Source: Tachypleus tridentatus
Lineage: Eukaryota > Arthropoda > Merostomata > Xiphosura > Limulidae
Assembly: GCF_004210375.1 (NCBI RefSeq)
Contig: NC_134830.1
Span: 1 to 64,000 of the forward strand
Direction of reading: 5' to 3'
DNA length: 64,000 nt
Both the position numbers and the translations under genes were made by a program. The notes under the pieces are model-generated. The model had not been told where the DNA came from, did no database searches, and saw only the letters and a program-made list of their open reading frames with translations. The first letter of the stretch is position 1. Each line of letters opens with the position of its first letter. Below are positions 331-25,222 of this stretch, piece after piece.

Positions 331-2198
331 ACGTAGAGCTAGACAATAGTTATAACTAGTTTTATTTTATGATTCGGTTGGTGTCCTGCTCTTGTTTTCA
401 TGAGAGAACTGGGAACTATTTAGTTTTAATGGTAATCAGCTTTGACGTATGGTGTATTTGTATTTCAAAGGGTACAGATATAGATGTATTCAGTCAATTA
501 TGTATGGCTCATAATCTCTATATAAATTACACATTTTTCAAACAAAATGAATTTTGCACATTTCATAGACATTTAAGTCATCAATTTATTCAGATATCAA
601 ATGTAACCAGCTTTCTACTTGTAGTAAATTACAATATAAAATATTGATAATAAATATAATTAAATTCTAGTATCAATCATAAATGGAACAAGGCATTTCA
701 CTTGTTGTTGTTTGTTTCTAATTCTGGTACAACAATATTCTCAGAGAACGTTTCATTTGTTTGTTTGATTACTTGCTATTGTAAAACGATATTTTAATAA
801 TCTGTGTTTCCATAATAAGACAATAAGACAAGCGAGGAGGAACAAAAACTGAAAATCTTTCTTCACTTATCTACAACGAGAATGAATCAACTGTTAAAGG
901 AGATTTGGACTCCACATTTCTTTCTCTCGTCTATACCTTTCGTGTTTTTCCTCAGTAATTAATCCCGGAGCTTTCATGTCTAAGTTGGCATGATATTCAA
1001 CGCAATAACACAGAGCACGAACATGTTTGCAAAGGGAGTTGTTACAGCAGTGCATTAGAAGACATTTAAACCTTATCTACTGCGCCATCCAACAATTTTT
1101 TAATAACGTATCGTTATTTCTCTCATTATATAAGTTAGTCGAGCTTTTAAGCAAAAACTATTATGGAAATATGTGCACAATACGGGAGAACTGATGTCTT
1201 AATCGAACATCAAATGTTAAAGCGTGTTGCACTTTTAATCAACATCAGAACATTCAGCTTCAGTGGCACATTTAGGGGGTGGCTTGGGTAACTACCTCAC
1301 TCTTTTTCTATATATTTTAAAAAAAGTTATGTCACATTTAAAAAAAAAATGTTTAATTATTAGTGAATAGTTCATTGCTTAAGTAATTAAAATTCATGAT
1401 CTGACTAACTAATTTCATTGGATAATACCTCGAATAAATAGGTACGTCTGTAGCATTATGTTACATTTTCTGTAGCGCCTCTAGCGGTCGACCCTTCATA
1501 CATTTAGACTCAAGGGAATCCCACAGTCACTTAATATAATATGTTTTACATAGCACATCTGCGCAGGCGAACAATTCTTCTTTCAAACAATTTGCACCAT
1601 TTTAAGTGTATTACATATTTACTATGTATGTGCTCCTGTTATATTAATTCAACTTTACACTTTACTTACCTAGCTAGTTTAAATGGTATTACTGATTCCT
1701 TATACTCAATATTTTATACTTTTGTCATGTTAAGCGAACTACCCTCAACCCATTAAGCGTCTAAAACAACGCTGTCTCTTCTATTTTGATTTTGGGTTCC
1801 GAAGTCCAACGAAGCATGCTGTCAAGACAAATCAACACATACGACTACAACACAGCCTTCTGAAGCGATTTCAGCAACACATATTACATCTGTACTTAAT
1901 GAGTGGCTCCACGAAAGCGTAATTTGTATAAATGTTGATGCAAGCACCCCCTACATTAGAAATTTCACAATGAAACGCTCAAAATTGAAGACAATTTAAG
2001 ACAACCGCTTTACAATCGACATGGATTCATGACTATAAGTGGATTACTTACAGCAGTCGCCCTTATTACAAAAGTGGATGGTGTCACCTTTGTGTTTTCT
2101 TTTCATAAGAAGTGGAAAAGCATATCTTGGGTGTTTACTTAAAGAAGTCATTCAATAACTCTAGTAAGTCCAATGAGTTCCTGAATGGTTAATCCTGG
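331..2198. other. No gene recognised
   Basis: AT-rich sequence with short, unconvincing ORFs on both strands. I saw no repeat, RNA or conserved protein motif. Confidence 0.5.
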
Positions 2199-2501
2199 AC
2201 TTCAATCATTGCTGACAATACGAAAGACAATAAACAAATCCTTCCAACTATAGCTGATTTCGTTTTATATTTTGCAACAGAGCAGATAGGCTTAAGAAGA
2301 CATCGAGATGACAGGATAGAATACAAAGAGGTCCTAGACCACAATGAAGATAATTTTATTGCGCTGATTTTTCTTGTACAGAAACTAATTTTGATAGAAC
2401 ACCTCCTTTCAGGTGCAAAAAATGCCACCTGCGCCAGTAAGACAATACAGAACGAAATAAGGCAACCAGTTGCAGATACAATTGGTGAAATTTTCGAATG
2501 A
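2199..2501 (+). pseudogene. hAT transposase relic (DUF4371/TTF-finger type), fragment
   Basis: One plus-strand frame reads TIADFVLYFATEQIGLRRHR, then DD, a short acidic run, and later NATCASKTIQNEI. This is the region after the TTF zinc finger in hAT-derived proteins of the ZMYM1-like group, where the usual motif is GLRGHRDD. The frame has no start, stops at TGA 2499-2501, and the remaining transposase domains were not found. It is a decayed transposon piece, diverged from the element at 50-52 kb. Confidence 0.7.
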
Positions 2502-2861
2502 GCTTCTGTGCATGAACTCACGAACAGCAATAAGAGTGAATGAAATTTCTTCCAATGAGTGTGAAATTCTCTCATAGTTTGCCAGTGGAATTTTAAGCTT
2601 AACTAAACACCCAAAATACAAGAAGTACTTTTCGACTTAGCCGACCTTGAGCGAATAATAGGAGAAACTATTGCATCAGCAATACTCTTCAGAGAGAACA
2701 TGTTAAAATCAAAGACTACAAAGGCTAGACTTATGAACCTCCTTGAGTTCCGATAGAAAAGGAGATGAAACATGCATTAAGAACTTTGAACCAAATGTTG
2801 ATTACCAAGGATGTGCGTTACAGTCTCTAAACCTAACAGCATGCCATGATTATGTGCGTGT

Positions 2862-2968
2862 TTTTTAGCAAAGCTGCATCGGGTTATCTGCCGAGCCTAT
2901 CGACTGGAATCGAACCCCTGATTTTAGCGTTGTAAATCCGTAGATTTACCGCTACTAGCGGGGACGCT
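2862..2968 (-). repeat. SINE family B copy
   Basis: tRNA-like head in reverse orientation: GGAATCGAACCCCTGATTTT is the complement of a B box, followed by GTAAATCCGTAGATTTACCG. The shared tail is GCAAAGCTGCATCGGGTTAT. Confidence 0.7.
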
Positions 2969-3717
2969 ATGATTATGAGGTTTCTTCCCATCGGATATAT
3001 GTAATGAATTCTTGTTGAGAGTCATTTTCATTTTTGGACAATTTACCCAAACACTAAACGTTTTTCCAAAATATCACTGATGCTCTTACTCCTAGTATTA
3101 AGAAAAAGACCTCTGCAAAAGACCAACACACCACTTTCGACACAGTTGAAGAAAGTTATGTCTACAAATTCAGAACCTTCTGTTGACCCATGTATTTGCA
3201 TCGAAGGAGAGAATTGGATACGAGGTTCAAAAACACGAAGTAAGGCAAATGGACGACGTCATACATTTACTAATTTCGAGCATAACATCAGTTGTATAAT
3301 TGCAAAAGAACCAAAGTCTCTACATGCGCCGTGTCTTCAAGGAAAGACAACTGATGCTTATATGGGTTTTCAAAATGTAGATCAGATAATTTCTTTTTAT
3401 ACAACCTCCGTGCATCTGTTGATTATTGGTTTCCCACTGTTTACCCCAAAGCCAAAGAATTAGCACAGTCTATGGATTCCAAAGACAAATGTCCCAGAAT
3501 TATATGGATGTCAGGAGCATCGCTCCAATAGCACTCCAAGACGACGAACACAGCATGGCTATTCATTTTCTAGGTATAATATCTGGAAAACTGAGGCCAC
3601 GATCTGGAGAAAACATGCGAGTGCACTTCGAGCTGTGCTCATTGATCCAGATGTCATAATAAAGAAGAACCATATTGAACTTTATGTACTGACAAATCCG
3701 TTGCCCAGAAATGACAA
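2969..3717. other. No gene recognised; weak plus-strand ORFs
   Basis: Two overlapping plus-strand ORFs (3080-3463 and 3426-3659) have no motif I know. They may belong to the decayed transposon upstream, but I cannot show it. Confidence 0.3.
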
Positions 3718-3998
3718 TTTTGTCTGTTTGTTGGTTGAATTTCGCACAAAGCTACTCGAGGGCTATATGCGCTAGCCGTCCCTAATTTAGCAGTGTAAGA
3801 CTAGAGGGAAGGCAGCTAGTCATCACCACCCACCGCCAACTCTTGGACTACTCTTTAACCAACGAATATTGGGATTGACCGTCACATTATAACAACCCCA
3901 CGACTTAAAGAGCGAACATGTTTGGTGCGACGGGAATGCGAACCCGCGACCCTCAGGTTACGAGTCGCACGCCTTAACCCACCTGGCCATGCCACGCC
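3718..3998 (-). repeat. SINE family A copy, full length
   Basis: Reverse orientation. The tail GAATTTCGCACAAAGCTAC comes first, then the core around AACTCTTGGACTACTC, then the tRNA-like head ending CCTGGCCATGCC. B box complement: GGAATGCGAACCCGCGACC. Confidence 0.85.
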
Positions 3999-4743
3999 AA
4001 ATGGCAATTTATTATTCCACGTCCAACAATGAATTACTTTGATGGCAGGAACTTTGTAAGGATGGTGTAAACAGATCTCTGATGCAACTCATTTGGCTGA
4101 TGAACTGATCTTCCCAAACCTTAGAATATTATTTCCTATTTTAGCAATCTTACCATTTGCATTGTAATACGAGTATGTTACTTTATGAACAGGTGAAATT
4201 GTACAACGATTTATTTCACTTTAAACTCGTTGAATGTAGCCACGAATCCTTTGTTTAACTACTGATATCAATTATTCCTTCTTTGGATTTACATACTGTC
4301 ATAGACTATCATAGTTATGGTTTGACTTCCGTTAACGTACTTGCTTATACTTCATATACTGAATAGATTCGTGTGTATATTCAATGGTTAAATATGTTTA
4401 ATATGTTCACGTATTTCAAATATATACTTCATTTTCTATGTTACTTTAGTCATAAATTCAAATGGAATGTATAACCTTTATACAGATCTTATTCACAAAA
4501 TTCAAACAAACTATTATTTACACAGGTTCGTAAATTTTTCATAGCCACACACTAGCAAATTCCTACACCATCGACTGAGCTTATATGAAATAGCTCACTG
4601 TAAGCTTCTATACAGATGTGTCTGACTAAATTCGTTTAAGTCTTCTTTAGAAGGTCGCTTGAAGTGTCTTTCGTTAGCCATTAACTGACCAAGTCATGTC
4701 TGAATTCTCCAGCATTTGAATACAAATAATTGGATCAATTTGG

Positions 4744-4813
4744 TGTTTTCTTATAGCAAAGCCACATGGGGCTATCTGCTGAGTCCACCGAGGGAATCGA
4801 ACCCCTAATTTTA
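4744..4813 (-). repeat. SINE family B copy, 5'-truncated, with 12-bp TSD
   Basis: About 70 bp of tail and T-arm only. It is flanked by a perfect direct repeat GGATCAATTTGG at 4732-4743 and 4814-4825. The truncation lies at the head side, as expected from incomplete target-primed reverse transcription. Confidence 0.85.
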
Positions 4814-4889
4814 GGATCAATTTGGATAGCATAATCATATACATATACAAGTATTTTGAAAACAAACGAAAACCCTACTTTAACATATA

Positions 4890-5225
4890 CCGTGTTTCTC
4901 CGATAATAAGACCTTCCCATAAAATAAGATCTAGTGTGATTTTTGGGGATAGTTTTAATATAAGCCCTACCCTTAAAATAAGCCCTAGTTAAGAGTGGCA
5001 AGAAGAGGAAAGAAATAAAAAATAATAATTTATTAATTAGTTTACTAGTTACTTAGTTAATTTGTTTAAGTATTAATCAGTTAGTTTAATAGTTTTACTT
5101 TGTAACTTCATTTTTTAATATATCAAAATAAGACATCCCCGAAAATAAGCCCTAGTGTCATATTTTGAATTTGTTTGTTTGGTGAAAATTAATATAAGCT
5201 CTGTCTTATTTTCGGAGAAACACGG
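4890..5225. mobile_element. Mariner-type MITE (336 bp)
   Basis: Terminal inverted repeats start CCGTGTTTCTCCGA at the left and as its complement at the right. They extend with one mismatch through ATAAGAC. TA dinucleotides flank both ends (4888-4889, 5226-5227), the Tc1/mariner target. The interior repeats the word AAAATAAGCCCTAG and has no transposase. Confidence 0.85.
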
Positions 5226-7519
5226 TACCTATTGAAATAAACGTCAAATAGTTTAATTTAGAAATTCTGATCAGCAGATAAGTGATAGGTAACATTCGCT
5301 AGACCAAACACAAGTTATGCTTAACGTAAACTATGCTAAGCCTACAACCAACTGGAACTGCAGGATTACGGCCATATAATAATTAAAATAACATTAGTAC
5401 CTAAGTGACAATAATAATAACGTCTTACCTTTTAGAAATGCACTTTCCGACATTTTGTGACTTTTCTTCCCAGTAGTTTCACCTGAAGATGTTGGCAGTC
5501 TAACTGCGTAACTGTGGTCTAATTTTACACTTTGAATTTACATACCGTCCACATAGTATCTACAGCGAAATGTTTACTTCGTTTCTTTTCACCATTAAAT
5601 ACTCGAGCTTGCAAACCTATAGCCGGCCTTAAAGCATTAGAATTCCAAGTGCTCCCATCTATTGGTCTGTTTTTTAATTATTTATTTTGCTTTTTGTTAG
5701 GCGTTTTAATTATGCTTTTCTTAAGTACATTTCAAAATAAAATAATAAAAAAATACTTTGTGAAAGTGTTTAGGATCCAACAGTTTCAACATGTTGCATA
5801 CATTAAAGAAAGCAAATAACATGTATTTGTTGTACTATACAGTCAAATCGAACAGCTGAAAAATACTGAAAAATCTGACTTCAAATCTATCATTTGATTC
5901 ACTAATTGTCTCTGAGTTTTAGTGGTTTGAATGAATTCTACACCTCACTACCAAACCTCTAAAAGGGCATTTCGAAATAATATAATAACCATACGTCATG
6001 TAATACGTATGAAATACAATCCACCCATATATGATATTTAGTATCTGTTCTTTCAAGTTGTCCTTGTTCAGAATTACTAGTGAAATATAGATTTCCACGT
6101 AATCAGTACAACTCATGTACAAGTGGTAAATAAAATGATAGAGGGGGCTTCCCTTTTATTTTTATAATATTAAATACCTTTATTGACTAAGCTAACTGGT
6201 AGCTCAATTTTGCATGTTCTTAAACTTCTCATATTATTAAGTACAGTAGTACTTAGTAGTAGGGTTTGACAAGGTTTCCAAATAACTCCAAAAGAAATCA
6301 CCGTATTGAATTCCAAAGCAAAACAAAAAACAACTAACTATTCAAAGTATTGATTACAATATATTATGCGCTATACTAACAATACACTAAAAATGTCACT
6401 GAGATTTTCAAAAATATACAAGATCGTCTATCACCTGCCTACCTGATCACGTCAGCGGGGCTAGCCCCTAGACGGCTCAAAATATCACTACAAAATTTCT
6501 CCAGGTTACTTAAGTGGTCTGTGGGTATCCGATTTTGTTATTCCGATAAATATACACAAATTCTGTATAAATGATAAATACATCATACACGTACTTGAAC
6601 ATCTTTTCAATCCAATTTAACCCAAAAGATGGCGCAACATATCAATGAATAGGCACGTGACAGTTTCTCAAGGTAAAGTATATACTTTATACAGATATAA
6701 CATAAAAGGTAAACAAACAAGAGTATTAAAAGAACTAAAACTACAATAACAAATTTACAAAGTTTAATCCGTAGTATGGCAGCTTTACACACACTTCTGT
6801 AGACCAAAGTAAGAATTACATCTTCTAAATTTGTGATTTTAAATCTTGTCAAAGTTATAGCTGTCATAAATATGGATATTTTGAAAATTTATAGATGTTG
6901 TATTTATTTCCACGGACATATAAAAACAGAATAAATAAATAGGAAGAAAATAAAATTTTAACATAAAATAGGGATTGTTGATTGCTCAAAATTTTATAAG
7001 AAGCGTCCAAAACAAAATAAACATTTCAATAAAATTTAGACTGCTTCATTTAGCTGTAGGGGTGACAAGGCCAACCAAAGTAGGGACTAAAATTGTTTTA
7101 AATCTATTTAAATTCTCTATTTGTGTACTTTTTATTTCAGCATTTATTTTGTTTTTGATGCTTCGTATAGCATTTCTACAAATAACAAACGATTCTTACT
7201 TTCCGTTAATTTGTTTACTCATATGTAAATATAAGATCACTATACAGCTCAAGCAACAACAACTTACTTTAACTTGTATTTGTCTGAAGGAAAAAACAAA
7301 CACAATTTTGATAATAACTTAACCATAAATATGGTAGTATATTACGTACTTTTACGTCATATATGACGTGACGATAGATAGATTAAATGTGTTGCTAATT
7401 TGTTACGAAATTCAAACCGATACACGCGACATGACACAAATTGTAACAAACATAAAGTATATTTAATGTTAATACGAAAAAAAAATGTGATTCAGAAGAC
7501 ATGATATATAAAGCTTTAC
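5226..7519. other. No confident gene; presumed 3' part or intron of the ADAMTSL locus
   Basis: AT-rich. A minus-strand segment 5518-5429 is open, phase 1 at both ends, with a strong donor (AAAAG/GTAAGA) but a weak acceptor. Its peptide is not TSR-like, so it is only a possible exon. A perfect 12-bp palindrome GGGGCTAGCCCC lies at about 6457-6468. Confidence 0.35.
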
Positions 7520-7733
7520 CACCCAAACAGGAAGCGCTACAAGGAGACATTCCAACTCTCAAAAGTACTTGATTACGTGCTTCGACTTGTCTCCCAGTCT
7601 TCCTCGCGTGCACCATCAGCTTTTTGTTGAATCCATTCTTCAAGATGATTCACTGACGTCCCTCCCTCGGGTGATTTCCGATGGTTGTCACATGGCTGGA
7701 TGAAGCAAATGTCTTTCCCGGGAGGCCGGGGTC
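7520..7733 (-). CDS. ADAMTSL: ADAMTSL exon: end of TSR5, acidic linker, start of TSR6
   Basis: The acceptor is CAATTACAG and the donor is GGGTG/GTAAAG. It opens GPRPPGKDICFIQPCD, the expected TSR5 end, followed by a charged linker. The start of TSR6, SPCSASCLGG, is in another reading frame. Between them lies a TAA near 7572 and a net shift of +1 or -2. A consensus error or genuine damage would both explain this. The rest of TSR6 must lie in a further exon at lower coordinates, which I could not identify. Confidence 0.72.
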
Positions 7734-10700
7734 CTGTAATTGATCAGACTGGCTTGTGATGTTCTTTATTTTTAGATTTTATTCTTAAGCGGTAGTCAGA
7801 AACAAAGGATAAGAAATGAAAACTTTACAAAGGTTTTGTTAAGTTCTTCGTAGTTGAATTGTTGTAGTCAGGTTATCCGATACTTAAGGTGTAGGAACCG
7901 TGTTCTCACGTATTTTTAATTCCCTTAGCGAGTGTATCCGATACAAAGAACCGTGTTCTCACGTATTTTTAATTCCCTTAGCGGTGTTTGTTTGTTGTTT
8001 TAAAGCAAACCCACATCGGGCTATCTGCTGAACCCATCGAGGGGAATCGAACCCCTGATTTTAGCGTTGTAAATCCGTAGACTTACCGCTGTACTAGAGG
8101 AGGGCAGGAGCGAAGGAGAATATTCCTATTCCTGACTTATAGCAAAGCCACATCGGGCTATCTGCTGAGCTTATCGAGGGGAATGGAACCCCTGATTTTA
8201 GCGTTGTAAATCCGTAGACTTACCGCTGTGCTGGCGAGTGGCAATTAGTGGATCAAAGTCATCGACTAAAACTATGTTTCAAGTATTATGTTGGTTATTT
8301 CTTGTTAACGACAAATTGTTTATTTAAGTGACGATGTACTTCACAAACCACAAGGAAACATAATCAATATTATAAATATAGAGGCTTTTGTTCAATACAC
8401 TGACTTTAGCATGTTCGTTTATTAATGAACAGAAGTGAAGATATTGTTTATTAATTATCAAGTTTAAGCAAGCTTTTAAAGATCATTTACGTAAATCTTG
8501 TATTGCAGAAGTTATCGTTCCGAAATAAATGTATTTTTATAGGGTCCGTACGAATATTGATTGATTATTATAAACGCAGTTCAGACTATTTTCCTCGTGC
8601 AGTATTTAATTGGTCAGCTTAGTAAAAAAAAAGTGTTACCCAAAAAAAATCAAAACCAAAACTTATCAACGAGGTGAAACAACAGAATTGGTTTTAACCT
8701 GGGCATTCGTTATCAGGTAATGTAGAAGCCGTTTTTGCAAATTCTAGATACATTATACATTCCACAGATCGTCGTTTCGTCCCTTCACCACAGGTGGCGC
8801 TACAAGGTTCCCATTCGCCTACCTTGAATCTGAAAGAAAATATTTTATTAATTTCTCAGATCAATACTTTATAAGTGCTGAGGAAAAAAACGTTTAGTGT
8901 TATTATTGTTCTCATTATATTTTATTTTATTAACTGCAAATTTTATCAACAATAATAGAACAAATAATTTGATCTTTAATTGAAGTATTATTATATCAGC
9001 GCATCGCATCCGACTGTACGTCCGATTACTTTGAACGTGCCATTATTTTAGTTTTAAAAATAGCACTTGATTCTAATTTACGAGTTATGTGCAGTTTGAG
9101 GTTTAGCAATTGCTCTATACTAGTCGAATAAATGTCACACCACCTGGTGGTAAACTCACTTTGTTTGTGTTTTCGGTCGAGATGATTCATTGGTTTGTGT
9201 TGTTAAGGAAACGCCAGTCTGACTGTGCCGAAGGTCTTCAGTTTCTTCGCTCCGAGATTGAAAATAACATTTAAATTGTAATCATAGTTATTATTGTTTA
9301 AACACTGAGTTTCTATAAATTATTGTCTTACACTTCTAGTTATTATCACTGTAATAGTACATTCTAAGAATTTAAACTATTGATATTAATTGAATCATGT
9401 GTGTATTTTACGTATTAAGTATTTCCTACGTTTCAATAGTTACTAGTAAAAATTAAAATGCGATATTCTAGATAATTTATGGAAAGTCTTGAAATGTGAT
9501 CTCCAGTCACACGATAAATGGAACGGTAGAGTAATACTATTCATCACACACATTAAACATATAAATTACCTGTGTCTTTATTAACAGCGCATGGCACTCG
9601 GCTCACACATGTTCTGCTTAACACAGGTCGAGTGTTCAGTTTACATTCTGGACTCAAATGTCCATCACTGTTCCGGCAAACCACAGATCTTTGCTGGTAA
9701 CCTTGTCCACATGTTACTGAACACTACGGAAGAGAATTCCGTGAACAAACGTACACATAGAAATAGGATTTTTAAATCGCTTTAGGGGTAAAGTATTTAT
9801 AATTAACACTGTATGTGTTTGGAAACATTTGGGAACATTTTCACGGTATTTCTTTGAAAAATAAAACTTTTTTTTTTCTTGAAAGTTCACGAGTGTATTG
9901 TAGCATAGCTTCATCCCGTGTTTTTCAAACTGTGGGGGCACGCCCCCTGTGAGGGCGCAAATGATCTCTTACGGGGGGCGCGAGTGAATAGGATAAAATA
10001 AATAGTGCAATAATGCAGAGTTAAGCGTTTTTAATATGTTTTTATTAATGAAAATAATAAGTAATTTCTACAACACATATATAATATTACTGTGTATTAT
10101 ATCCCCTCATTTAACTCTCTCTTTTACGGGCCCGGCATGGCCAAGCGTGTTAAGGCGTGCGACTCGTAATCGGAGGGTCGCGGGTTCGCATCTCCTTCGC
10201 GCCAAACATGCTCGCCCTTTCAGCCGTGGGGGCGTTATAATGTGACGGTCAATCCCACTATTCGTTGGTAAAAGAGTAGCTCAAGAGTTGGCGGTGGGTG
10301 GTGGTGACTAGCTGCCTTCCCTCTTGTCTTACACTACTAAATTAGGGACGGCTAGCACAGATAGCCCTCGTGTGCTTTTGTGCGAAATTTCGAAACAAAC
10401 AAACAAGCCCTCTTTTACTCATTTACAAGTGAAATGGGCACCAAGAAACAATATTTATCAAAGAAGGTGAATGACAAAAGTTTGAAAAACACTAGTTTAA
10501 CCTATAACTCATCTCTCTAAGCCTTAAGAAAAGTCAAATATACTTTAATATAATCCATTAAGTTATTAAGCAAACGTATATCTACTCTAAACAAGATCAG
10601 TCCGTTGACAGGTTTTGAATCTCGGAGTCCCTGATCACTGACGATCAGCGATTAAGTCAGGCTTTTAACATCAATTATCATCACAGACAGTGGTACTACC

Positions 10701-13700
10701 CTCATCCTTATTGAATCAGCGATATAACATCAATATCAGAGTCTGTATACGCGTTTACTGTTCTTTTTCTAATGATTTGTAATGCACTCTGTATGTTAAA
10801 TCAGTTTGTGTCGTTGGGTGTCTCGTGAGATTAAACACTTGTATTTTATCTATTTCTGAATAACATTTGTTTGTTTGTTTTGGAATTTCGCACAAAGCTA
10901 CTCGAGGGCTATCTGTGCTAGCCGTCCCTAATTTAGCAGTGTAAGACTAGAGGGAAGGCAGCTAGTCATCACCACCCACCGCCAACTCTTGGGCTACTCT
11001 TTTACCAACGAATAGTGGAATTGACCGTAACTTTATAACGCCCCCACGGCTAGGAGGGCGAGCATGTTTGGCGCGACTCAGGCGCGAACCCACGACCCTC
11101 AGATTACGAAGCGCACGCATTAACGCTAGGCCATGCCAGGCCCACTGAATAACGTCTTATTCAATTTTTCTTTGTGTTGATACCATTAAAATTATACGAT
11201 AAATATTTTAAATAATTTAGAATATTATTAATCTATACCATAATGAAGAAGGTTTTACATCAGTAGCTAAAGCACTAGAAAACAACGTTATTAGGATGGA
11301 AGAAAGGTCTTGGCTTACAATAGTACTTGGGATTAAGGTAGTTGCGAAAATAAATGCTCAGATTTTTTGTGTATTAATTAATGTCATTGTGTATTTACAA
11401 CCCGATTGTTGTTCTGGATAGATTTCATTCGTCTATAACTTCTTCCTTTCAGTATTGACTTACATTGTAACAAAACAAAGTCGTAATACCAAACCAACAA
11501 CTAATTTTTGTGTAATGTTTAACTGACATATTTTTTATCAAGTCCATTCTGTTTGAAAAACGTCGAATCTAGCCTATTGTTGTACTTGTTTTGTTTGAAT
11601 TCTAAACGAAATTGTGATTCATAATTTTAGAAATGTTAGCTTGGGAATTTATTTATACAGGGTGTTCGGAAAGTCACTGTGCAGTTTTGTACTCATATGT
11701 CTATTCAGTCTATTTCAAGCCAGCAACTGATAGCGGTGTTTAGAAACAAAATAAGAAGGATCCAGGCCTGTATTGATGCCAACGGGGGTCACTTTCAACA
11801 TTGTTTATAATTGTCATTCATATTTACCTCTTGTATTCTATATTGAAACATGTCTGTTAATAAATATATAAGTGCACAGTGACTTTCCGAATACCCTGTA
11901 TGTATATTACCAGGGCATTGTCTTTGTGACTTTAAAGCGGTGATTGAAAATAACAACGGATATTGATAAAAGGATTCTTTTTATATGTATCTGTATATAC
12001 AGATTACAAAGTCTACTTTAACTGAAATTCAGAGGTTAGAAAATTAGAAAACGGGTCCAGTTGGACCTAATCAACAAGATGGCTAAACTAGAACACAAAT
12101 GAACTTACTTCAGACCAAGGACCTTCAAACCACCGAGGACAGATCCTAGTGTTACAGGGTTGCCGGTCGACGGGTTTAGGTGGAAAACAAAACCTAGTGT
12201 TAACCTGGACATTTGTTCTGTTATAAGAATCTGGAACACATTTTACATTACGGGTTTGGAAACCTCCGCCACAGGGAACACTGCAGGGACCCCAGTCTTC
12301 GGTAATCCAGCTGAAAAGTAATATAATTGTAACAATAAAAGTTTAGTTAAGAAAAACGTCTTTGTTATCAACTGTATTATACACATTTCTTCCATCGCAT
12401 TACTTAGATCCTCACGAATTGTTTCTTAATGATCGTGGGAATAAGAAATGGATTTGTAAATGAAACACATAACAGGAAACTATAAGGTTGGAGGACTGGA
12501 TATAGTGATGTACTGCTATTCGGTATCGAATTTTGACCATCTATATTTGCTCTAGATAGTGGTAGGCATACATCACGAAAAGCAATTTTCTTTTACAAGA
12601 AGCTTTTTGAGAACGTCCATTTAATTGTGTAGGATGTTAAAAAAAACAGAAGCAAAATCTCACAAAGAAATTGTATTTCGTAACCTTATACATTCATGAA
12701 TTAAAAGTTCATCGGGCCCGGCATGGCCAAGCGTGTTAAGGCGTTCGACTCGTATTCCGAGGGTCGCGGGTTCGAATCCCGGTCGCACCAAACATGTTCG
12801 CCCTTTCAGCCGTAGGAGCGTTATAATGTGATGGTGAATCCACTATTCGTTGGTAAAATAGTAGCTCAAGAGTTGACGGTGGGTGGTGACGATTACTAGC
12901 TGCCTTCTCTTTAGTTTTACACTGCTAAATTAGGGACGGCTTGCGCAGATAGCCCTCGAGTAGCTTTGCGCGAAATTCAAAACAAACAAAAATTCATTGA
13001 CATTACGAATTACTATTTACAAACATCCATACTTTCGGGCGACATTCAACAATCCGTTATTTATTTTCATCATCACTAGATTTCCAGGAATTATCCTGGA
13101 AAATACCCGAGTTTTATATCTGCTTCACTCAAAAGAAAACATCCCTTTATTAAAGGTTCAAACATAGTAGTATCATTCGACAGTGAGTACATATTTACGT
13201 ATACGTACATTGCTGGACAAACTTGCGTATTACATAACCGTATTTGAGGTCGGGGTCTTGTGGCAAAGTCGCAGAATCTTTCGGGAAATTCTTTGCGAGT
13301 CTCTGTATCACTGCAAATGGGCCTTGACATCTGATAGCCTGAATAACAATATTACAATTACAGATAGTTACAGATAGTCCATTCTGTTGGATTTCGCTTA
13401 ACAACTAATAATACTTTACATTGGTTTCTGTTTCTCCTTCCATAAAAAAACAAAAAACAACGTAATATAATTTAAATGTAGCAGTTTTGAAACTTTCACC
13501 ACAAAGTTTCTATATTCGTACTTATTGTAACGGTTACGCCCGTATAGTTACACACTAACCAGATATCTTTCCCCAAAAGCGATGACGATTATAAACTTTG
13601 TAATGTGAAATTAGATTAATCAACTTAATGACCTAAGGATAATATGGTTGTGGAAAGACTTAAGCTGCTTATTTTATAAGAAAACTTATAAGAGCTCATA

Positions 13701-16390
13701 ACGGTCGACACTAATGCATGGTATAAGGCACATCTCACTTGAAGCAGAGTGACCTTTTCACGACTACATCTGTGAAATACACAGGACCCTAAGTTTAGAT
13801 AAAACCAACATATTAACCATTAGCTCAAGTCACATAATTTACACAGAATACACAATTAGCACCGTTATAAGTCATAAAAATGTGTAAATGGACAAGTAGT
13901 ACTCACCACCACCACATGTCACAGAACAAGGTGAAAGGTCAGTTTCTGACCATTCATAAGTAGGATATTTACAACTTGTTCCATTTCTCCACAAATTCCA
14001 CATTCGTCAATCTTTTCGCTGAGCCAAGCTGAAGATCACATCCAACGGACTGAAATACAATGAATATTTAATAGCATCAGATGCGGCTACCTCCTTATTC
14101 TAAGTACATATATATATATATACATAAATATATTGGTGGGTAATTACAATATTGCTCTAGTTAGATTAAAAGTTTATCAGTTTGTTCACTTTATTCTTTC
14201 TTATTTTATCTTTCATTACTGGATACAGATTGTGACTTACAACTTTTCGTTTTTATCCACATTCGTTTTATTCTAATTCGTATCTATATATGATCACACG
14301 GTCGAAACTATACGGAAACAAGGTTGTATGCTCTACTAACTAGTTGACTTAAACCGTGTCAAATAGGCCCGTCATGACCAGGTGGTTAAGGCACTCCAAT
14401 CGTAATCCGAGGATCGCGGGTTCGAATCCCCGTCACACCAAATATGCTCGCCCTTTCAGCCGTGAGGGCGTTATAAAGTGACGGTCAATCCCACTATTCG
14501 TTGATTAAAGAGTAGCCCAAGAGTTGGCGGTGGGTGATGATGATTACCTGCCTTCCCTCTAGTCTTAGACTGCTAAATTAGGGACGGCTAGCGTAGATAG
14601 CTCTCGTGTAGCTTTGCGCGAAAAAAAACAAACCATGTCAAACACGCGTCACTCTTTAAGTTACTGTTAGGTTGTTAAAAGAACAGTGAATAAAAAAACG
14701 AATGGGTGGATAAACAAAAAAAATAATTTGTGCGTTTTTATGATTAATCAGGTTTGGTTTTAGCTGAAAAATATTTGTGTACGAAAATCGACTGAAGCGT
14801 AAGTGTAATAACCTAGAATTTCTTGTTTAGGAACCGCAGTGAGACTTTACTACGTGTTGATACATCTGTTGTTCTTGCAACGTAGCGAAAGACATTTGAT
14901 ATAAAGCTTCTACGTATTGAACAACTTCCTCACAATAAAATGCAAGCCTGCAACACGCTCACCTGCTACGTTATATGTGTTCTATGTATAAATAATATAT
15001 AAATAAGCTGTTATCAGTATATGTATATATTGAGCGAACTCTGATGGAAAGCCCGATTGGTATTAGTCAAAATATTATATATAATGAAAACCGTTAAAAA
15101 TATTTTATTTTTGTTGCTTTTTTTTACACGTACATAACACGACCCCTGGCGAGAACTTAAGAATATTCACCATGCACACCCTTCCACACACACATATCGA
15201 GTGAACCCTTCCGGCAACGAGTGCCATCTTGAGCTTTATGCGCTAGTTTGGCGACGAATAAGAAACTCTTTGCCTGGCACGTTAAACTGCACGGATCTTC
15301 CGGATCGTGGAATGGCTTCCAGTCGTAGAGCCGTCCTCGGTATGGTCTGTTGTCGTAGGCCTTGCACTGCATAGCTCGAAAGTCAGACCTGTCCTTGCAA
15401 GGCTGAAAAGAAACAACGAATCTTACCCTTTTATATTGTCGTGCACTCAAGAATTCTACAAATAACAAATATGTCGCACACACCTGGAATTATTTACGTG
15501 CGCTATAGAATATATAACGTTTACGTTAACTTTAGTAGGTGTGTGTGTTTGTGTGTTTTCTTATAGCAAAGCCACATTGGGCTATCTGCTGAGTCCACCA
15601 AGGGGAATCGAACCCCTGATTTTATCGCTGTAAATCCGAAGACTTACCACTGTACTAGCAGGGAACTCTTTAGTAGGTATGGTTAAAAGTCCACCGCTGG
15701 TACAGCGGTAAGTTTACTGATTTACAACTCTAAAATCGGCGGTTCGATTCCCCTCGGTGAACTCAACAGATAGCCCGATATTGCTTTGTTATAAGAAAAC
15801 ACAGACAAACTACACGATGATAAAGAGAGCATTGAACTTCTATTTTCATGATAACACAAAGCTTTCAAAACCAAGACTAAAATTAGAAACTAAGGTAGAC
15901 ACTACACTGTGAAAGGGCAAGTTTGTAGTCTTGCTTCTTTCTTAGTTTGTTTGTATGGCGACGTTTTTTTATTTTTGGTTTTTCCATCCCTAAACAAATA
16001 TATACATTGCTAGTAGCTATAACGAATCTCTTTGCTATAAATATACATAAAAACAGCACATTTTTAAAGATTCACAAAGTACTTGACTTAAGAATGGTGA
16101 TTCTGCATTTCAAAGTGTCTTTCTAACACAGACACTACGAGGGCTTATGGTGTCGCTTATTGATTTTGCCTTGACTTGCCCGAAGGCATAGTGTATTAAA
16201 AGTTCAAACAAATTTCTTATTTTACCTGCATATTACAAATACGGTAACGTATTGAATCTCCACGGCACCCCGTTTTCTGTAAACACTGTCGAATTTGGTA
16301 GGTGACGCCACCGTCGCAGCTCCTTGAGCATATCCCCCAGAGACTCCATTCCGACCATCCGATTGGAGTGTCGCTTCTCCTCTGATTGGT
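7520..16390 (-). CDS. ADAMTSL: ADAMTS-like protein, ADAMTSL1/ADAMTSL3 type (8 exons, partial at both ends)
   Basis: Exons in transcript order are 16390-16226, 15402-15171, 14049-13907, 13338-13209, 12310-12109, 9723-9570, 8818-8699 and 7733-7520. They encode TSR1 (WSEWSLWGICSRSC), an ADAMTS cysteine-rich domain (FRAMQCKAYDN, DGTRC, SLDMC, VGCD, CGIC), then TSR2 to TSR6. Exon phases agree at all seven introns. Such proteins are secreted glycoproteins of the extracellular matrix that lack the protease domain. The TSR order and the LPDNECPGP motif in TSR5 match the ADAMTSL1/3 group (Drosophila nolo is the likely insect relative). Odd points: the spacer domain normally found between the cysteine-rich module and TSR2 is absent, and exons 2, 3 and 8 carry small frameshifts. 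The signal peptide and the C-terminal TSR, Ig and PLAC parts are not found here. Papilin or a true ADAMTS is less likely. No database search was possible. Confidence 0.85.
7869..7983. repeat. Two-copy tandem duplication
   Basis: The word ACCGTGTTCTCACGTATTTT, with flanking CCGATAC and CCCTTAGCG, occurs twice in succession. Confidence 0.8.
7986..8104 (-). repeat. SINE family B copy
   Basis: Reverse orientation with GGGGAATCGAACCCCTGAT and GTAAATCCGTAGACTTACCG. The tail, GCAAACCCACATCGGGCTAT, lies to the left. Confidence 0.85.
8134..8237 (-). repeat. SINE family B copy
   Basis: A second family B copy 30 bp away in the same orientation. The tail is AGCAAAGCCACATCGGGCTA, and the B box complement carries one change (GGAATGGAACCCC). 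Confidence 0.85.
8699..8818 (-). CDS. ADAMTSL: ADAMTSL exon: TSR5, first part
   Basis: It reads GEWEPCSATCGEGTKRRS, then VECIMYLEF and LPDNECPG. The donor is CCAG/GTTAAA. Two acceptors are possible. CTTTCAG at 8830 has the better pyrimidine tract, but GGTAG ending at 8819 gives the required phase 1 join to the preceding exon, so I chose the start at 8818. The frame is intact. Confidence 0.83.
9570..9723 (-). CDS. ADAMTSL: ADAMTSL exon: TSR4
   Basis: The acceptor is TTCTCTTCCGTAG and the donor is ACAG/GTAATT. It starts exactly at the first TSR4 cysteine: CSVTCGQGYQQRSVVC, then SPECKLNTRPVLSRTC and VPC. Phase 0 entry joins WSE to CSVTC without a gap. The frame is intact over 154 nt. Confidence 0.9.
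9916..10494. mobile_element. Non-autonomous hAT element interrupted by a SINE
   Basis: Left end CCGTGTTTTTCAAACT and right end AGTTTGAAAAACACTA form hAT-like TIRs (consensus CAGTGTTTTTCAAACT). A GC-rich subterminal block follows the left end. The flanking 8 bp, GCTTCATC and GTTTAACC, match at only five positions, so the TSD is doubtful. Roughly 300 bp remain once the SINE is removed. Confidence 0.6.
10128..10409 (+). repeat. SINE family A copy with 9-bp TSD
   Basis: Head GGGCCCGGCATGGCCAAGCG, core and CGAAACAAACAAACAA tail. The TSD CTCTTTTAC lies at 10119-10127 and 10410-10418. It is nested in the hAT element, so it inserted later. Confidence 0.9.
10865..11144 (-). repeat. SINE family A copy with 9-bp TSD
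   Basis: Full-length reverse copy from TTTGTTTGTTTTGGAATTTC to CATGCCAGGCCC. Perfect TSD CTGAATAAC at 10856-10864 and 11145-11153. Confidence 0.9.
11658..11898 (+). mobile_element. Deleted mariner-like element keeping the transposase C-terminus
   Basis: TIRs are CAGGGTGTTCGGAAAGTCAC and its near-complement, extending to CTGTGCA. TA flanks lie at 11656-11657 and 11899-11900. Between them, 11739-11810 encodes FRNKIRRIQACIDANGGHFQ followed by HCL and a stop, typical of the C-terminal end of Tc1/mariner (IS630-like) transposases. The catalytic domain is gone. Confidence 0.85.
12109..12310 (-). CDS. ADAMTSL: ADAMTSL exon: TSR3 and start of TSR4
   Basis: The acceptor is ACTTTTCAG and the donor is GAA/GTAAGT. 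The 67 intact codons read WITEDWGPCSVPCGGGFQTR..., through PCNTRICP, to WFEGPWSE. The 2-nt carry-over from the preceding exon completes an Ile codon. An NRT N-glycosylation sequon lies in the middle. TSR3 has CSVPC where most TSRs have CSxTC or CSxSC, so its O-fucosylation acceptor is absent. Confidence 0.9.
12714..12990 (+). repeat. SINE family A copy
   Basis: Head GGGCCCGGCATGGCCAAGCG, B box GGGTTCGAATCCC, tail AAATTCAAAACAAACAAAAA. Flanking AAAGTTCAT and AAAATTCAT may be a degraded TSD. It lies in an ADAMTSL intron. Confidence 0.9.
13209..13338 (-). CDS. ADAMTSL: ADAMTSL exon: TSR2 body
   Basis: The acceptor is TTATTCAG and the donor is CAAT/GTACGT. It reads GYQMSRPICSD...FPERFCDFATRPRP and ends LCNTQVCPA. 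Entry is phase 1 from the CGGG of the previous exon and exit is phase 2. The frame is intact over 130 nt. The spacing of the four cysteines fits TSR2 of ADAMTSL1/3. Confidence 0.85.
13907..14049 (-). CDS. ADAMTSL: ADAMTSL exon: end of cysteine-rich domain and start of TSR2
   Basis: The acceptor is TATTTCAG and the donor is GGTG/GTGAGT. It reads SVGCDLQLGSAK, then in a second frame IDECGICG, then in a third frame NGTSCKYPTYEWSETD and SPCSVTCGGG. All three pieces are collinear with the family, so two single bases appear to be missing, one in an AAAA run and one where GGAGG would be expected. Adding two bases gives the length needed for phase 0 in and phase 1 out. The ~120-residue spacer domain expected between the CGGNGTSC-like motif and TSR2 is absent. 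Confidence 0.78.
14366..14631 (+). repeat. SINE family A copy
   Basis: GGCCCGTCATGACCAGGTGG head, GGGTTCGAATCCCCGTCAC B box and GCTTTGCGCGAAAAAAAACA tail. Intronic. Confidence 0.88.
15171..15402 (-). CDS. ADAMTSL: ADAMTSL exon: cysteine-rich domain, first part
   Basis: The acceptor is CTTTTCAG and the donor is CATG/GTGAAT. The peptide starts PCKDRSDFRAMQCKAYDN, continues with YDWKPF, DPCSLTC and DGTRC, and ends SLDMC. This is the standard ADAMTS/ADAMTSL cysteine-rich module and joins in phase to TSR1. The length of 232 nt is two short of a whole number of codons. A missing TG in the GGTGTGCATG run near 15171-15180 would restore the expected ending VCM before VGCD in the next exon. Confidence 0.85.
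15541..15667 (-). repeat. SINE family B copy with 11-bp TSD
   Basis: Tail AGCAAAGCCACATTGGGCTA, B box complement GGAATCGAACCCC. TSD CTTTAGTAGGT at 15530-15540 and 15668-15678. Confidence 0.9.
15690..15802 (+). repeat. SINE family B copy, inverted relative to its neighbour
   Basis: GGTACAGCGGTAAGTTTACT head, GGTTCGATTCCCCTCGGTGA B box, AGATAGCCCGATATTGCTTT tail. It stands head to head with the copy at 15.54-15.67 kb. Confidence 0.88.
16226..16390 (-). CDS. ADAMTSL: ADAMTSL exon: linker and TSR1
   Basis: 55 codons, entering and leaving in phase 0. The acceptor follows GTACTAACAG and the donor is CAG/GTAAAA. After a short linker the peptide reads WSEWSLWGICSRSC...YRICNMQ, a complete ADAMTS-type first TSR with six cysteines. 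WSEWSLW contains two overlapping WxxW C-mannosylation sites, and CSRSCDGG fits the O-fucosylation consensus. The reading frame is intact. Confidence 0.85.
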
Positions 16391-16845
16391 CTGTTAGTAC
16401 CAACATACAAAATAAAGAATGTAAAACAATGTCCGCATGTAAAAATAGATAAAAACTCACGAATCGAGATGTTTATCGATACAACTCTCAAATGCAAGTT
16501 TGTTCAAACCGTGTATAAAAAAAATCACTGGATGTTCGACTCCTGTTCACTGCCAATAATCCAATGACTGCTCATTAACAATCCTCAGTCATTTAATTAA
16601 ATATTTAGCAGTTTTAAAATAATAATAACTAGAAACTTCAGTTCAGTTCAGTTGATCCATAATAAAATTCTAAAAATTTCTGCGCTAGTTGTGGAAAATA
16701 AAACTACCATATTCGAAAGATAAGAAAGTGTCATAGGGTTTGTGGTGCCCAGTGATGTTGATTTAAAACATTACCTGGGACGAGGAATGGCTTCCGTCTA
16801 GCTACCCTGATAACGTAGCCCATTCTATGAACATAACTTCTGATT

Positions 16846-17121
16846 ACCCCGGCATGGCCAGGTGGTTAAGGCACTCGACTCGTAATCTGAAGGTCGCGGG
16901 TTCGAATCCCCGTAATACCAAACATACTCGCCCTTTCAGTCGTTGAGGCGTCAAAATGTTACGGTTAGTTACATTATTCGTTAGTAAAGAAAGTAGCCAA
17001 AGAGTTGGCGATGGGTGGTGATAACTAGCTGCCTTATCACTAGTCTTACACTCCTAAATTAGGGACGGCTAGCGCAGTACCTTTACCTCGTGTACCTTTA
17101 GGCGAAATTCAAAAACAAAAC
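16846..17121 (+). repeat. SINE family A copy
   Basis: CCCCGGCATGGCCAGGTGG head, GGGTTCGAATCCCCGTAAT B box, AAATTCAAAAACAAAAC tail. The core is somewhat diverged. Confidence 0.88.
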
Positions 17122-17867
17122 AGAACTTCTGATGGTATCTGTGGCGGCTGCTTAAAATAAACCATTCGACTTACGTCCTTTCACAGACATTCTGATCAGT
17201 TCGGATGCCTAGGATGAACATAAATTGTTGTTTTCCAACGTAACTAAAACTATATTAGTACCAAATTCACTGAGGTGTTCTAATTCACTTGATTTCATGT
17301 TTCCATCATCCAGTCATTAGATTTTGTGAAAACACGGTTAAATCGCAGGATTATTTTTTTCATACGTGTCAAGATTTTCACTGAAATATGATTGGAATAT
17401 TTACATGTGACGCTAGTGAGATGGTTGAATTTTCAGGTATGTACTTACTTACTGGTAGGCTGTATATATTGAAAGGGAATGTACAAATATCGTTTTGTTT
17501 ATGTCAGCTATCTTGGTTAAAGTTAAATATGTTTATTCGAAAACAAGGTGTTTAAAAAATGTGAATTGTTAACAAAACGTTCAAAACCAAAGTCTGGTTC
17601 CACACCGTATCCTTCATTTTTATATTTATTGAAAACTATACCGAGCTAATCTGACTAATTAAACATGAATTAGAACAGGCGTACATTAGATACAATATAA
17701 ACAGGAAGACAGCTTCACAATTGTTTTCACTGTTACTGTCTTACACCAGTAAAAAAAGTTAAGGTTTGTTTATGTTTCTGTGTGTTTGTTAAATGTAGTG
17801 TCTCTTCATAAACCTTATCGGGAAGTTAAACGATGGTTGCTAGGCACCGGAGACACCAAGAAAACAA

Positions 17868-20492
17868 TAATGACGGTAGCTTGTACTGACACAGGTAACA
17901 CAGGTAACGTACTTAATGACGGTAGTTTGTACCGACAACACAGGTAACAATGAATGGTAGCTTTTGTAGTGACAACACAGGTAATATACTTAATGACGGT
18001 GGCTTGTGAGTGACAACCTGGGTAACATACTGTAATGACGGTGAGCTTGTAGTGACCACACAGGTAACGTACTTAATGACGGTGGCTTGTAGCGGAAGTG
18101 ACCAACACAATTAACCGGTAGTTAATGACGGTGGCTTGTGGTGATAACCTGGGTAACGTGCTTAATGACGGTAGCTTGTACCTGACCACACTGGGTAACG
18201 TGCTTAATGACCAGGGTAGTTTTGTGAGTGACAACACAATTAACATACTTAATGACGGTAGTTTGTGAGTGACCGGCACGGGTAACGTGCTTAATGACGG
18301 TGGCTTGTGGTGACAACACAGGTAACATAATTAATGACGGTGGCTTGTTGTGACAACACGAATTAACGTGCTTAATGACGGTAGCTTGTACTGACAAACT
18401 GGGTAACATGCTTAATGACGGTAGCTTATTACTGACAACACAGGTAATATACTTAATGACGACGTATGGCTTGTACTGACAACACAGGTAACGTGCTTAA
18501 TGACGGTAGCACGTAACGTGACAACACTGGAGTAACGATCATGTAATGACGTAAGCTTGTGCTGACAACACAGGTAACGTATGTAATGACGGTGGCTTGT
18601 ACTGACAACCTGGTAACGTGCTTAATGACGGTAGCTTGTTGTGACAACCTGGGTACGTGCTTAATGACGGTGGCGGTACTGACAACACTGGGTAAACATG
18701 CCAATAACGGTAGCTTATTGCCGGGCAACCTAGGTGCTGTAACTTAATGACGGTGGCTTGTGAGTGACAACACAGGTAACGTACTTAATGACGGTGGCTT
18801 GTAGTGACAACGCAGGTGTGTCATAATAACGGTGGCTTGTAGTGACAACACAGATTAACATATGTAATGACGGTGGCTATGGTACTGCACACAGATAACA
18901 TATATTAATGACTGTTGGTGGCTTATGAGTGACAACCGGTAGGTAGTAACGTAACGCTTAATGACGGTAGCTTTACTGACAACACAGGGTAACGATAACT
19001 TAATGACGGTAGCTTGTAGGTGACAACGGTAGATTAGGGTAACGTGCTTAATGACGGTGGCTTGTGGTGACAACCACAGGCAATTTAACGGTACTTGTAA
19101 TGACGGTGGCTTGTACTGACTGACAACACAGGTAACGTGTACTTAATGACGGTGTAGCTTGTACTGACAACACAGGGTAACGTAGCTTCTTGTAGTAATG
19201 ACGGTAGCTTGTACTGACAACCTGACAGGTAACGTACTTAATGACGGTGGCTTGCCAGGTGACAACACAGGTAACGTACTTAATGACGGTGGCTTGTGGT
19301 GACAACCACACAGGTAACGTACTTAATGACGGTAGCTTGTAGTGACAACACAGGTAACATACTTAATGACGGTGGCTTGTGAGTGACAACACAGGTAACG
19401 GTACTTAATGACGGTGGCTTGTAGTGACAACCTTACAGGTTAACATATAAATGACGGTAGCAATAGTGACAACACGGGTAACGTACTTAATGACGGTGGC
19501 TTGTTGACCACACAGGTAACGTACTTAATGACGGTAGCTTGTAGTGTACACGGAGGTAATATGCTTAATGACGGTAGCTTGTGGTGACAACACAGGTAAC
19601 GTACTTAATGACGGTAGCTTAATGACTGACAACACAGGTAACTGTGATATAATGACGGGTAGCTTGAGTGACAACACAGGTAACGTACTTAATGACGGTA
19701 GCTTGTAGCGTGACAACACAGGTAACATACTTAATGACGGTAGCTTGTAATGACGGTAGCTTGACAACACAGGTAACATACTTAATGACGGTAGCTTGTG
19801 TGGTGACCACACAGGTAACATACTTAATGACGGTGGCTTGTAGTGACAACACAGGTAATGTACTTAATGACGGTGGCTTGTAGTGACAACACAGGTAACG
19901 TACTTAATGACGGTAGCTTGTAGGTGACAACACAGGGTAACGTGCTTAATGACGGTGGCTTGTACTGACAAACACAGGTAAACACGTAACGTACTCAATG
20001 ACGGTAGCTTAATGTATTTGTGACAACACAGGTAACGCACGTACTCAATGACGGTAGCTTGTAGGTGACAACTGAACAGGCAATGTGACTCAATGACGGT
20101 AGCTTGTAGTTTGTGACAACACAGGTAACGTACTTAATGACGGATGGCTTGTGGTGACAACACAGGTAACGTACTTAATGACGGTGACAACACAGGGCTT
20201 GTTTGCAACACGACAACACAGGTAACATACGTTAATGACAAACGGTGGCTTGTACTGACAACACAGGTAAACTTAATACTAATGACGGTAGCTTGTACTG
20301 ACAACACAGGTAACATACTTAATGACGGTAGCTTGTACTGACAACACTTAATGACGGTAGCTTGTACTGACAACACAGGTAACGTACTTAACGACGGTAA
20401 TGACAGGTAGCTTGACGGCGTTTTGTACCTCGACAACACAGGTAATGTACTTAATGACGGTAGCTTGTACTGACAACACAGGTAACATACTT
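17868..20492. repeat. 40-bp minisatellite, about 65 units
   Basis: The unit contains TTAATGACGGTGGCTTGTAG then TGACAACACAGGTAACGTAC. Units in the last third are regular. Units in 18.0-19.3 kb carry many one- to five-base insertions and losses. Apparent minus-strand ORFs (ATVIKYVTCVV repeats) are by-products of the array. Confidence 0.95.
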
Positions 20493-21125
20493 ACACCAAA
20501 CCTACTAGTTCATGAGCAGAATCTAAAGGTGATTGGTCATTTGTCACTGTCAACCAATCACTCAATTACCCGCAAACTCAATAAATGTACTTATTATATT
20601 AAATACACGTATGTACAGTCTATTTGAATCTCCAAAGTGAGCTGTTTTTTCATTCCTTTAAATCTGACATAAAATTTTTTTCAAGTCGTGTTCCAGCGAG
20701 TAAACTACCTAATCGATAAACTAAACACCAAAAAACAAAATGGGAGTTTTATTAACAGCACAAAACAGGTACTAGCGTGACTTTACGAAAAGTAAAACAA
20801 TGTTGGTTAGTAGTTATATCTGTCTGAAAGTTTAAATGTATGAAGTAGCAGGATTCACGAAACACTTTACCAAATATAACCGACCGATATTTAGAAATAA
20901 CAAACTAAGTCAGACTTTAAACTCAGGTATAATGTACTGTTCTTTTTATTTTTTTTTCTCTCATGATCCCTCTGTGGCTAATCGGTGAATTTTCGGACTT
21001 ATAACACAAATATTCGAGATTCGATTTGTAAGGCTGACACAGCACCACACGGTAACTGGTTCTAAAGTAACTTGTGGTAGGTAAATGGAGCCTTTTACAT
21101 GAAAAACCATTATGACGTGTTAAGT
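20493..21125. other. No gene recognised
   Basis: AT-rich unique sequence between the minisatellite and a degraded SINE. Confidence 0.5.
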
Positions 21126-21384
21126 TCATCTAGCCTCAGTAAGTATTCGACATGTATGAATTCAAACCTCTTCTGCAAACATCTTCGTCTTTTCAACTAT
21201 AGGGGCATTATAATATAATGGTCCACCTCACTATTCGTCTGTGGAAAAAAAGACAAAAAAAGAGGCCGAAGAGTTGGCGGTGGGTGGCGTTAACTGCTGC
21301 CTTCCCTTAGTACATTATTACTAAATTAGGGACGACTAGAGCAGATAGCCCTCAAGTAGCTTTGCGTGAAATACATTACAAACA
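21126..21384 (+). repeat. SINE family A copy, degraded head
   Basis: Core AGAGTTGGCGGTGGGTGGCG and tail GACTAGAGCAGATAGCCCTC are clear. The tRNA-like head is only weakly recognisable. Confidence 0.75.
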
Positions 21385-21508
21385 AAGTACCATATTTCGT
21401 GGAAACGAAAAGCGACTTAATACGTGAATTATTTCATTTTGTTTGTCAGCTGTCTACTATGGATGGTGTTCTGTTTGGGATAACCTCTTCTTTTTTCTTT
21501 CTACTTAC

Positions 21509-21601
21509 CTTGTCAGTAGAGAAGAACCATCTCTCGGATTCTGCTGGTGGTGAACTTGAAACAGCTAGATGCAATTCTTGCTTTCTTAGCCCCAAGAAGA
21601 C
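21509..21601 (-). CDS. Possible upstream exon of the ADAMTSL gene
   Basis: 31 open codons lie between a good acceptor (AACTGTTTTAG) and a consensus donor (ACAAG/GTAAGT), phase 0 at both ends. That matches the phase 0 entry of the TSR1 exon 5 kb downstream. The peptide (VFLGLRKQELHLAV..., then ERWFFSTDK) has no recognised domain. The case rests only on splice signals and phase, and the plus strand is also open here. Confidence 0.3.
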
Positions 21602-22182
21602 CTAAAACAGTTATGCTTTAAATTAGTACGAAGTAATATCAGTTCCAATGTTCAACAGATTATTAACCTACAGCCATATCTGTGTACTTACAAACAATTA
21701 TGATAATTTTAACCCCTATAGAAAAGAGAGTATGCAAATAACATCGTCTTACCTTATAACGACATGATAACATAACTTCTCAAACAAGAAAGCCAAGACC
21801 TAAACTTTATGCGTAAAAATAATATTAGTTATCTCAACCATATCTTTGTATCGACAGCACAGTTGAACTACAAATATTTAAGTTAAAACTTACTACTATC
21901 GGATGAAAGAAAAACTGAAGTCATCTCTGAAAACAAAGAGTCATGTATTTAATGGTAAGTCAGTAAATATTGTGCCAGTAAATACATAAAAACAAATAAA
22001 TACAATAAAATTAGGTTTGTTATTCACGCATGTTGAATTTTTGCATAATTGTTTTTTTTTAAAAAAAAGATCCTAATGTGTTTAAACTAAGTTTATTAGT
22101 TAATTAATTATTTTAATTAAATATTTAAAACGTAAAAAAATATACTGTTGCTCGACTACTGATGGCAGTAGTAAAAAGATGG

Positions 22183-22342
22183 ACACCATTGGTCATGTAT
22201 TAGTGGAAGCTGTAAACAATTTACACCATTGGTCATGTATTAATGGAAGCTGTAAACAATTTACACCATTGGTCATGTATTAATGGAAGCTGTAAACAAT
22301 TTACACTATTGGTCATGTATTAATGGAAGCTGTAAACAATTT
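22183..22342. repeat. Four tandem copies of a 40-bp unit
   Basis: ACACCATTGGTCATGTATTA plus AATGGAAGCTGTAAACAATT-like second half, repeated at exact 40-bp spacing (22183, 22223, 22263, 22303) with at most one change per copy. Confidence 0.95.
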
Positions 22343-25117: not shown

Positions 25118-25222
25118 TAGTTAAACATAAAGCTTCACAGTGGGCTATCTCTGTAGTGCCCACCACTGGTATTCAAACCCATTTTCTATCGTTATAAGCC
25201 TTTTTATCGCTGGGTTCATACA
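25118..25222 (-). repeat. SINE family C copy, diverged
   Basis: Tail complement AAAGCTTCACAGTGGGCTAT, then GTGCCCACCACTGGTATTC and ATCGCTGGGTTC. Family C copies are tRNA-like with a GCCCACCAC-GGGTATCGAAACCC signature. Confidence 0.7.

Follow-up and report, generated by a model that had tools for sequence, protein, structure and literature searches.

The start of a Tachypleus tridentatus contig carries the 5' half of a likely ADAMTSL1/3-type gene that lacks the spacer

ADAMTSL family members are secreted, non-catalytic matrix proteins. The vertebrate ADAMTSL1 and ADAMTSL3 proteins have a common layout, in which TSR1 and a cysteine-rich domain are followed by a run of TSRs, Ig domains, more TSRs, and a PLAC domain. 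According to PMC10499240, ADAMTS-like proteins share TSR1, the cysteine-rich domain, and a spacer, and madd-4 is given there as the ortholog of ADAMTSL1 and 3. PMC4133157 and PMC9083331 state that MADD-4 attracts muscle arms and organizes synapses, and the latter describes Caenorhabditis elegans MADD-4L as containing TSRs, a cysteine-rich module, a spacer, one Ig-like domain, and PLAC. In Drosophila, Nolo was identified as MADD-4, according to PMC10445734; PMC3708815 concerns a different fly ADAMTSL, one with a spacer. Our literature search found no report that paired ADAMTSL with a horseshoe crab, which is a weak negative because most subscription journals lay outside the search.

The window analyzed here covers the first 64 kb of contig C6 in a T. 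tridentatus assembly with 205 contigs and 2,167,478,450 bases (~2.17 Gb). Coagulin (PF02035), a clotting protein of horseshoe crabs, had matches at 19 places in this genome. No runs of N and no TTAGG runs of three or more units were found in the window. The original prediction placed eight short minus-strand exons at 7520-16390, and this number, strand, and position agreed with our reading of the borders: an AG preceded and a GT followed each exon from E1 (16390-16226) to E8 (7733-7520). The motifs quoted in that prediction, FRAMQCKAYDN, DGTRC, and LPDNECPG among them, were also present in the sequence. That the region looks blank to an ORF scan, which had been remarked upon as well, is expected for any spliced animal gene.

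All eight exons were on the minus strand. E1 (16226..16390; 165 nt, phase 0 to 0) corresponded to TSR1 (Pfam TSP_1, E value of 4.8e-7) and was 63% identical to the matching exon of a paralog on contig C13. Most of the ADAMTS cysteine-rich domain was located in E2 (15171..15402; 232 nt), and the end of this domain and the start of TSR2 were located together in E3 (13907..14049), without a spacer between them. The remainder of TSR2 was found in E4 (13209..13338), and E5 (12109..12310; TSP1_ADAMTS, E value of 3e-14) contained TSR3 together with the first residues of TSR4; E4 and E5 were each identical in all three copies of the region, which are described below. E6 (9570..9723), which ended in phase 1, contained the remainder of TSR4 (TSP1_ADAMTS, E value of 7.9e-9), E7 (8699..8829), which started in phase 2, contained the first part of TSR5 (TSP1_ADAMTS, E value of 1.2e-10), and E8 (7520..7733) contained the TSR5 end, a linker, and the TSR6 start. 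The introns held repeat families in both orientations (3737-3998, 10127-11124, 12710-12991, 14363-14633, and others), which we take to resemble tRNA-derived SINEs, and Rfam identified one tRNA-like stretch in the window (27288-27357). Broken pieces of a hAT-type transposase were located at 50402-52451 on the minus strand (DUF4371, PF14291, 1.2e-20; Dimer_Tnp_hAT, PF05699, 2.3e-6).

When the eight exon pieces were searched against Pfam, E1, E5, E6, and E7 yielded TSR matches above the family cut-offs and E3 yielded a weak TSR match below them; E2 alone and E4 alone had no match at an E value of 0.1, and E8 had no TSR match. These single-exon domain matches are far beyond chance. A join of E2-E3 from the copy on contig C2 to E4-E6 matched the ADAMTS cysteine-rich model (PF19236) at 33.7 bits, with a cut-off of 21, and contained three TSP1_ADAMTS stretches. 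The C2-copy E2-E3 join also matched solved ADAMTS13 structures (whole-sequence E value of 3.3e-9), with the best agreement in the cysteine-rich stretch. Together with the E1 match, the PF19236 match supported the predicted TSR1 and cysteine-rich domain. The prediction that five further TSRs would follow was right for TSR2 to TSR5, which were whole, but only the first half of TSR6 was in the window; the exon that completes it lay on C2.

The phases had been predicted to match throughout. They agreed at five of the seven joins (E1-E2, E3-E4, E4-E5, E5-E6, and E7-E8) but clashed at E2-E3 in the window copy and at E6-E7, and E3 and E8 were broken in frame besides. Specifically, E2 of the window had one base more than that of the C2 copy, so the join to E3 was off by one base. 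E3 had two frame changes in the window, was also broken in the copy on contig C5, and was open in the C2 copy; in the window, E8 contained an in-frame stop as well as a frame change, and its frame was open in C2 and C5.

In the case of the E6-E7 junction, the same clash between an end in phase 1 and a start in phase 2 was observed in all three copies and in the paralogs on C13 and C4. Both paralogs had a candidate 103-nt exon (phase 1 to 2) between E6 and E7, and the two linker peptides were similar on inspection by eye (22 of 34 residues). E6 and E7 are probably linked by an extra exon. The window had a weak candidate for this exon on the minus strand (9160..9244; 85 nt, phase 1 to 2, AG/GT borders, open frame), which showed no significant similarity to the C4 and C13 linkers (shuffle fractions of 0.56 and 0.47, respectively). 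Given the phase clash and the candidate linker exons in both paralogs, we rejected a direct E6-E7 join as the likely arrangement; a downstream in-phase AG, seen by eye in each of the three genes, leaves it some probability.

The gene on C2 continues past the point where C6 begins, and the window contains the 5' half only. On C2, the remainder of TSR6 was found in E9 (C2:20241251-20241120; E value of 3.8e-9 when joined to the E8 end), TSR7 was found in E10 (~20238.0 kb; 4.9e-14), and TSR8 (TSP1_ADAMTS, 7.2e-7) and two Ig stretches (I-set, 1.2e-24) were found in E11, which begins at 20235751. Further along were TSR-like pieces at 20232.5, 20219.6, and 20218.7 kb, recognized only by motif or weak tblastn matches, and a TSR piece at 20216.4 kb (PF19030, 41.2 bits). 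A PLAC match was located at C2:20208143-20208235 (PF08686, 33.4 bits, cut-off of 26.4); its splicing to the gene is putative, and the same search gave a sub-cut-off signal in 1 of 14 control genomes. Inside the gene, a long array of ~36-base repeats (C2:20219.7-20230.5 kb) was open in several frames and had an apparent repeated peptide. No equivalents of E9, E10, or E11 were found in the window. When window 16394-33300 was compared by tblastx with an 11.8-kb stretch of C13, repeats swamped the result, and no signal-peptide exon was found among the matches listed. The metalloprotease model PF01421, a weak probe with four places genome-wide, had no match at the locus.

We found four paralogous loci in the genome, on C2, C11, C13, and C4. 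The C11 gene was present twice with nearly equal scores (C11:22.63-22.66 Mb, minus strand; C11:24.61-24.65 Mb, plus strand) and was 78% identical to E2; this doubling is another sign of redundancy or inverted duplication. We counted the two C11 places (22.66 and 24.61 Mb) as one locus because they scored alike and were inverted to each other. The arrangement in which a single E3 exon contains the end of the cysteine-rich domain and the start of TSR2 was also found on C13 (75% identity over E3) and C4 (71%), and in both C11 places query 77-127 had a match of equal length (153 bases) across the junction. The spacer model PF05986 matched 17 places in the genome, none of which was in these four loci. 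Over 209 codons of E2, E3, E4, and E7, the C13-C4 comparison yielded a dN of 0.14, a dS of 1.75, and a dN/dS of ~0.08 with NG86 and a dN of 0.16, a dS of 1.07, and a dN/dS of ~0.15 with YN00; the paralog exons are constrained. We take the synonymous sites to be saturated in the C2-C13 and C2-C4 comparisons.

The region itself was one of three near-identical copies, which were located at the C6 start (the window), at the C5 end, and at C2:20.249-20.291 Mb. Window 1..42134 was collinear with C2:20248662-20291411, and window 19-27865 was collinear with the C5 end, which was compared as far as window 27865. Long BLAST blocks between copies were 94 to 98.5% identical, and identity was 86% across an array at 18-22 kb. 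In six blocks totaling 21444 columns, which omitted window 1-59, 5101-5299, 7601-8299, 14201-14599, 17801-22599, and everything past 27700, the pairs of copies differed by substitutions at 141, 166, and 163 sites (0.66, 0.77, and 0.76%). No site had three states, and 72 substitutions were unique to the window, 69 to C5, and 94 to C2. Block 12000-14200 had no substitutions in 2198 columns and nine small indels, each of which singled out one copy. Frame breaks were found in E2, E3, and E8 of the window, in E2 and E3 of C5, and in E1 of C2, which was intact in the window. Each of the eight exons was open in at least one copy, and the breaks coincided with indels of 1 to 4 nt.

The ends of the copies were examined as well. 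The last base of C5 aligned to window base 19, so the C5 end and the C6 start were at most 18 bases apart. Collinearity with C2 stopped at ~42134, shortly past smaller arrays and a minisatellite (window 33386-41424) with a 37-bp unit, ~216 copies, and strong GC and AT skew, and the window then passed from sequence like that at C2:20.29 Mb to sequence like that at C2:21.03 Mb without a run of N. Probes from window 43200-44500 and 62001-63200 matched C2:21029079-21049453 and C6:86140-106079 (98 to 100%), the C6 matches being ~42.9 kb further along C6. The 3' half of the gene was present a second time, in inverted orientation, from C2:20562307 onward, just after a 500-N gap; this copy started 31 bases past the gap, and its E9 was 86 bases past it.

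We read the copies and repeated matches as redundant pieces of haplotypes, with joins near repeats, and the window copy as most likely a redundant piece left at a contig end. The substitution divergence of 0.66 to 0.77% was close to the heterozygosity of ~0.65% that PMC6390705 gives for another sample of T. tridentatus. However, plain haplotype redundancy is insufficient because a diploid provides two haplotypes and the 5' half had three differing copies, and one of the three could be a true duplication. In addition, the 2.17-Gb assembly was not plainly inflated relative to the k-mer genome size of 2.14 to 2.15 Gb (PMC6390705), which counts against pure redundancy; two other T. tridentatus assemblies were 1.72 and 1.94 Gb, as listed in a table of PMC7815833. 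A recent segmental duplication, in which two other chromosome ends received copies of 28-42 kb or more from the C2 region and the copied ADAMTSL1/3 pieces would be truncated and probably non-functional, would account for three copies with substitutions of their own and for an N-free window that crosses between two C2-like sequences. We consider it unlikely since both terminal copies ended so close together, the divergence resembled the published heterozygosity, and redundancy recurred elsewhere (C2:20.56 Mb, inverted after the N gap; C6:86 and 105 kb; C11:22.66 and 24.61 Mb). Less likely still is pseudogene decay of the window copy, with real frame-breaking mutations. The three broken window exons and the two in C5 would fit such decay, but the breaks accompanied small indels, every exon was open somewhere, and the C2 copy, which bears the rest of the gene, had a break in E1 that the window did not share. 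The frame-breaking indels differed between copies even in the substitution-free block, so the breaks are most likely sequence or assembly errors, and we rejected pseudogene decay as their main cause on this pattern of nine indels against no substitutions in 2.2 kb.

The identity of the gene has to be weighed against the possibility that these are exons of a different TSR protein, such as an ADAMTS protease or papilin. TSR arrays were widespread in the genome (at least 119 PF19030 places, with 150 of 299 candidates scored), and the spacer that is usual in ADAMTSL1/3 was missing here. Other features of the punctin group were found: TSR1 followed by the cysteine-rich domain, for which PF19236 scored 43.1 bits on C13 and 44.8 bits on C4, and, outside the window, Ig stretches between the central and C-terminal TSRs in E11 of C2 and a C-terminal PLAC match on C2. 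The TSR8 and double-Ig exon, with TSR-like pieces and PLAC after it, argues against another TSR protein, as do the nearest loci by E2-E4, which were the C11, C13, and C4 paralogs; five loci beside PF05986 matches resembled the cysteine-rich part only, and weakly (E values of 3.5e-5 to 5.5e-4). We regard an origin outside the ADAMTSL1/3 genes as highly improbable. The sequence features assign the gene to the ADAMTSL1/3 (punctin, MADD-4, nolo) type, as originally predicted, and the C2 copy adds TSR6 to TSR8, the double-Ig exon, the TSR-like pieces, and the PLAC match to that assignment.

Our main reading, to which we give a probability of about 0.8, is that the window contains the 5' half of a T. 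tridentatus ADAMTSL1/3-type gene in a redundant haplotype piece, with a frame broken by errors and with a spacer that was lost in the group. It builds on exons and domains that were observed directly, on the fuller C2 copy, and on the four paralogous loci. The original prediction had missed the truncation at the contig start, the three copies, the broken frame, the probable exon between E6 and E7, and the absent spacer. Because near-identical redundant copies carry independent small indels, gene counts and frames should be checked against the C2 copy.

The gene itself is ordinary, and the point of interest is the spacer-less punctin group. The evidence leans modestly toward the idea that the horseshoe-crab punctins on C2, C11, C13, and C4 lost the spacer when the exons for the end of the cysteine-rich domain and the start of TSR2 fused, before the whole-genome duplications. 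Genome duplications in horseshoe crabs are described in PMC7815833; if these gave rise to the four loci, the spacer loss would predate them. If the idea is true, a long-form punctin would organize synapses or matrix without a module described in MADD-4L, and the spacer loss may extend to other arthropods. The four spacer-less paralogs provide a natural deletion for probing the role of the spacer in ADAMTSL proteins, with MADD-4 as the comparison.

Splicing and function are suggested by the family. The gene would encode a secreted, non-catalytic matrix protein, and, after splicing and secretion, the TSR/Ig array may by analogy act as a matrix-anchored ligand or organizer rather than as a protease, perhaps in a role akin to that of MADD-4 at nerve-muscle contacts. 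Compared to vertebrate ADAMTSL1 and ADAMTSL3 (punctin-1 and punctin-2), the horseshoe-crab gene had the same order of TSR1, cysteine-rich domain, TSRs, Ig, TSRs, and PLAC, but its cysteine-rich domain passed to TSR2 without a spacer, it had two Ig stretches in one exon, and its window copy stopped within TSR6. Drosophila Nolo is likewise an arthropod ADAMTS-like protein. C. elegans MADD-4 (CePunctin) has the TSR, cysteine-rich, Ig, and PLAC make-up in common with the horseshoe-crab genes and belongs to the same group, but the spacer module of MADD-4L was absent from the horseshoe-crab genes.
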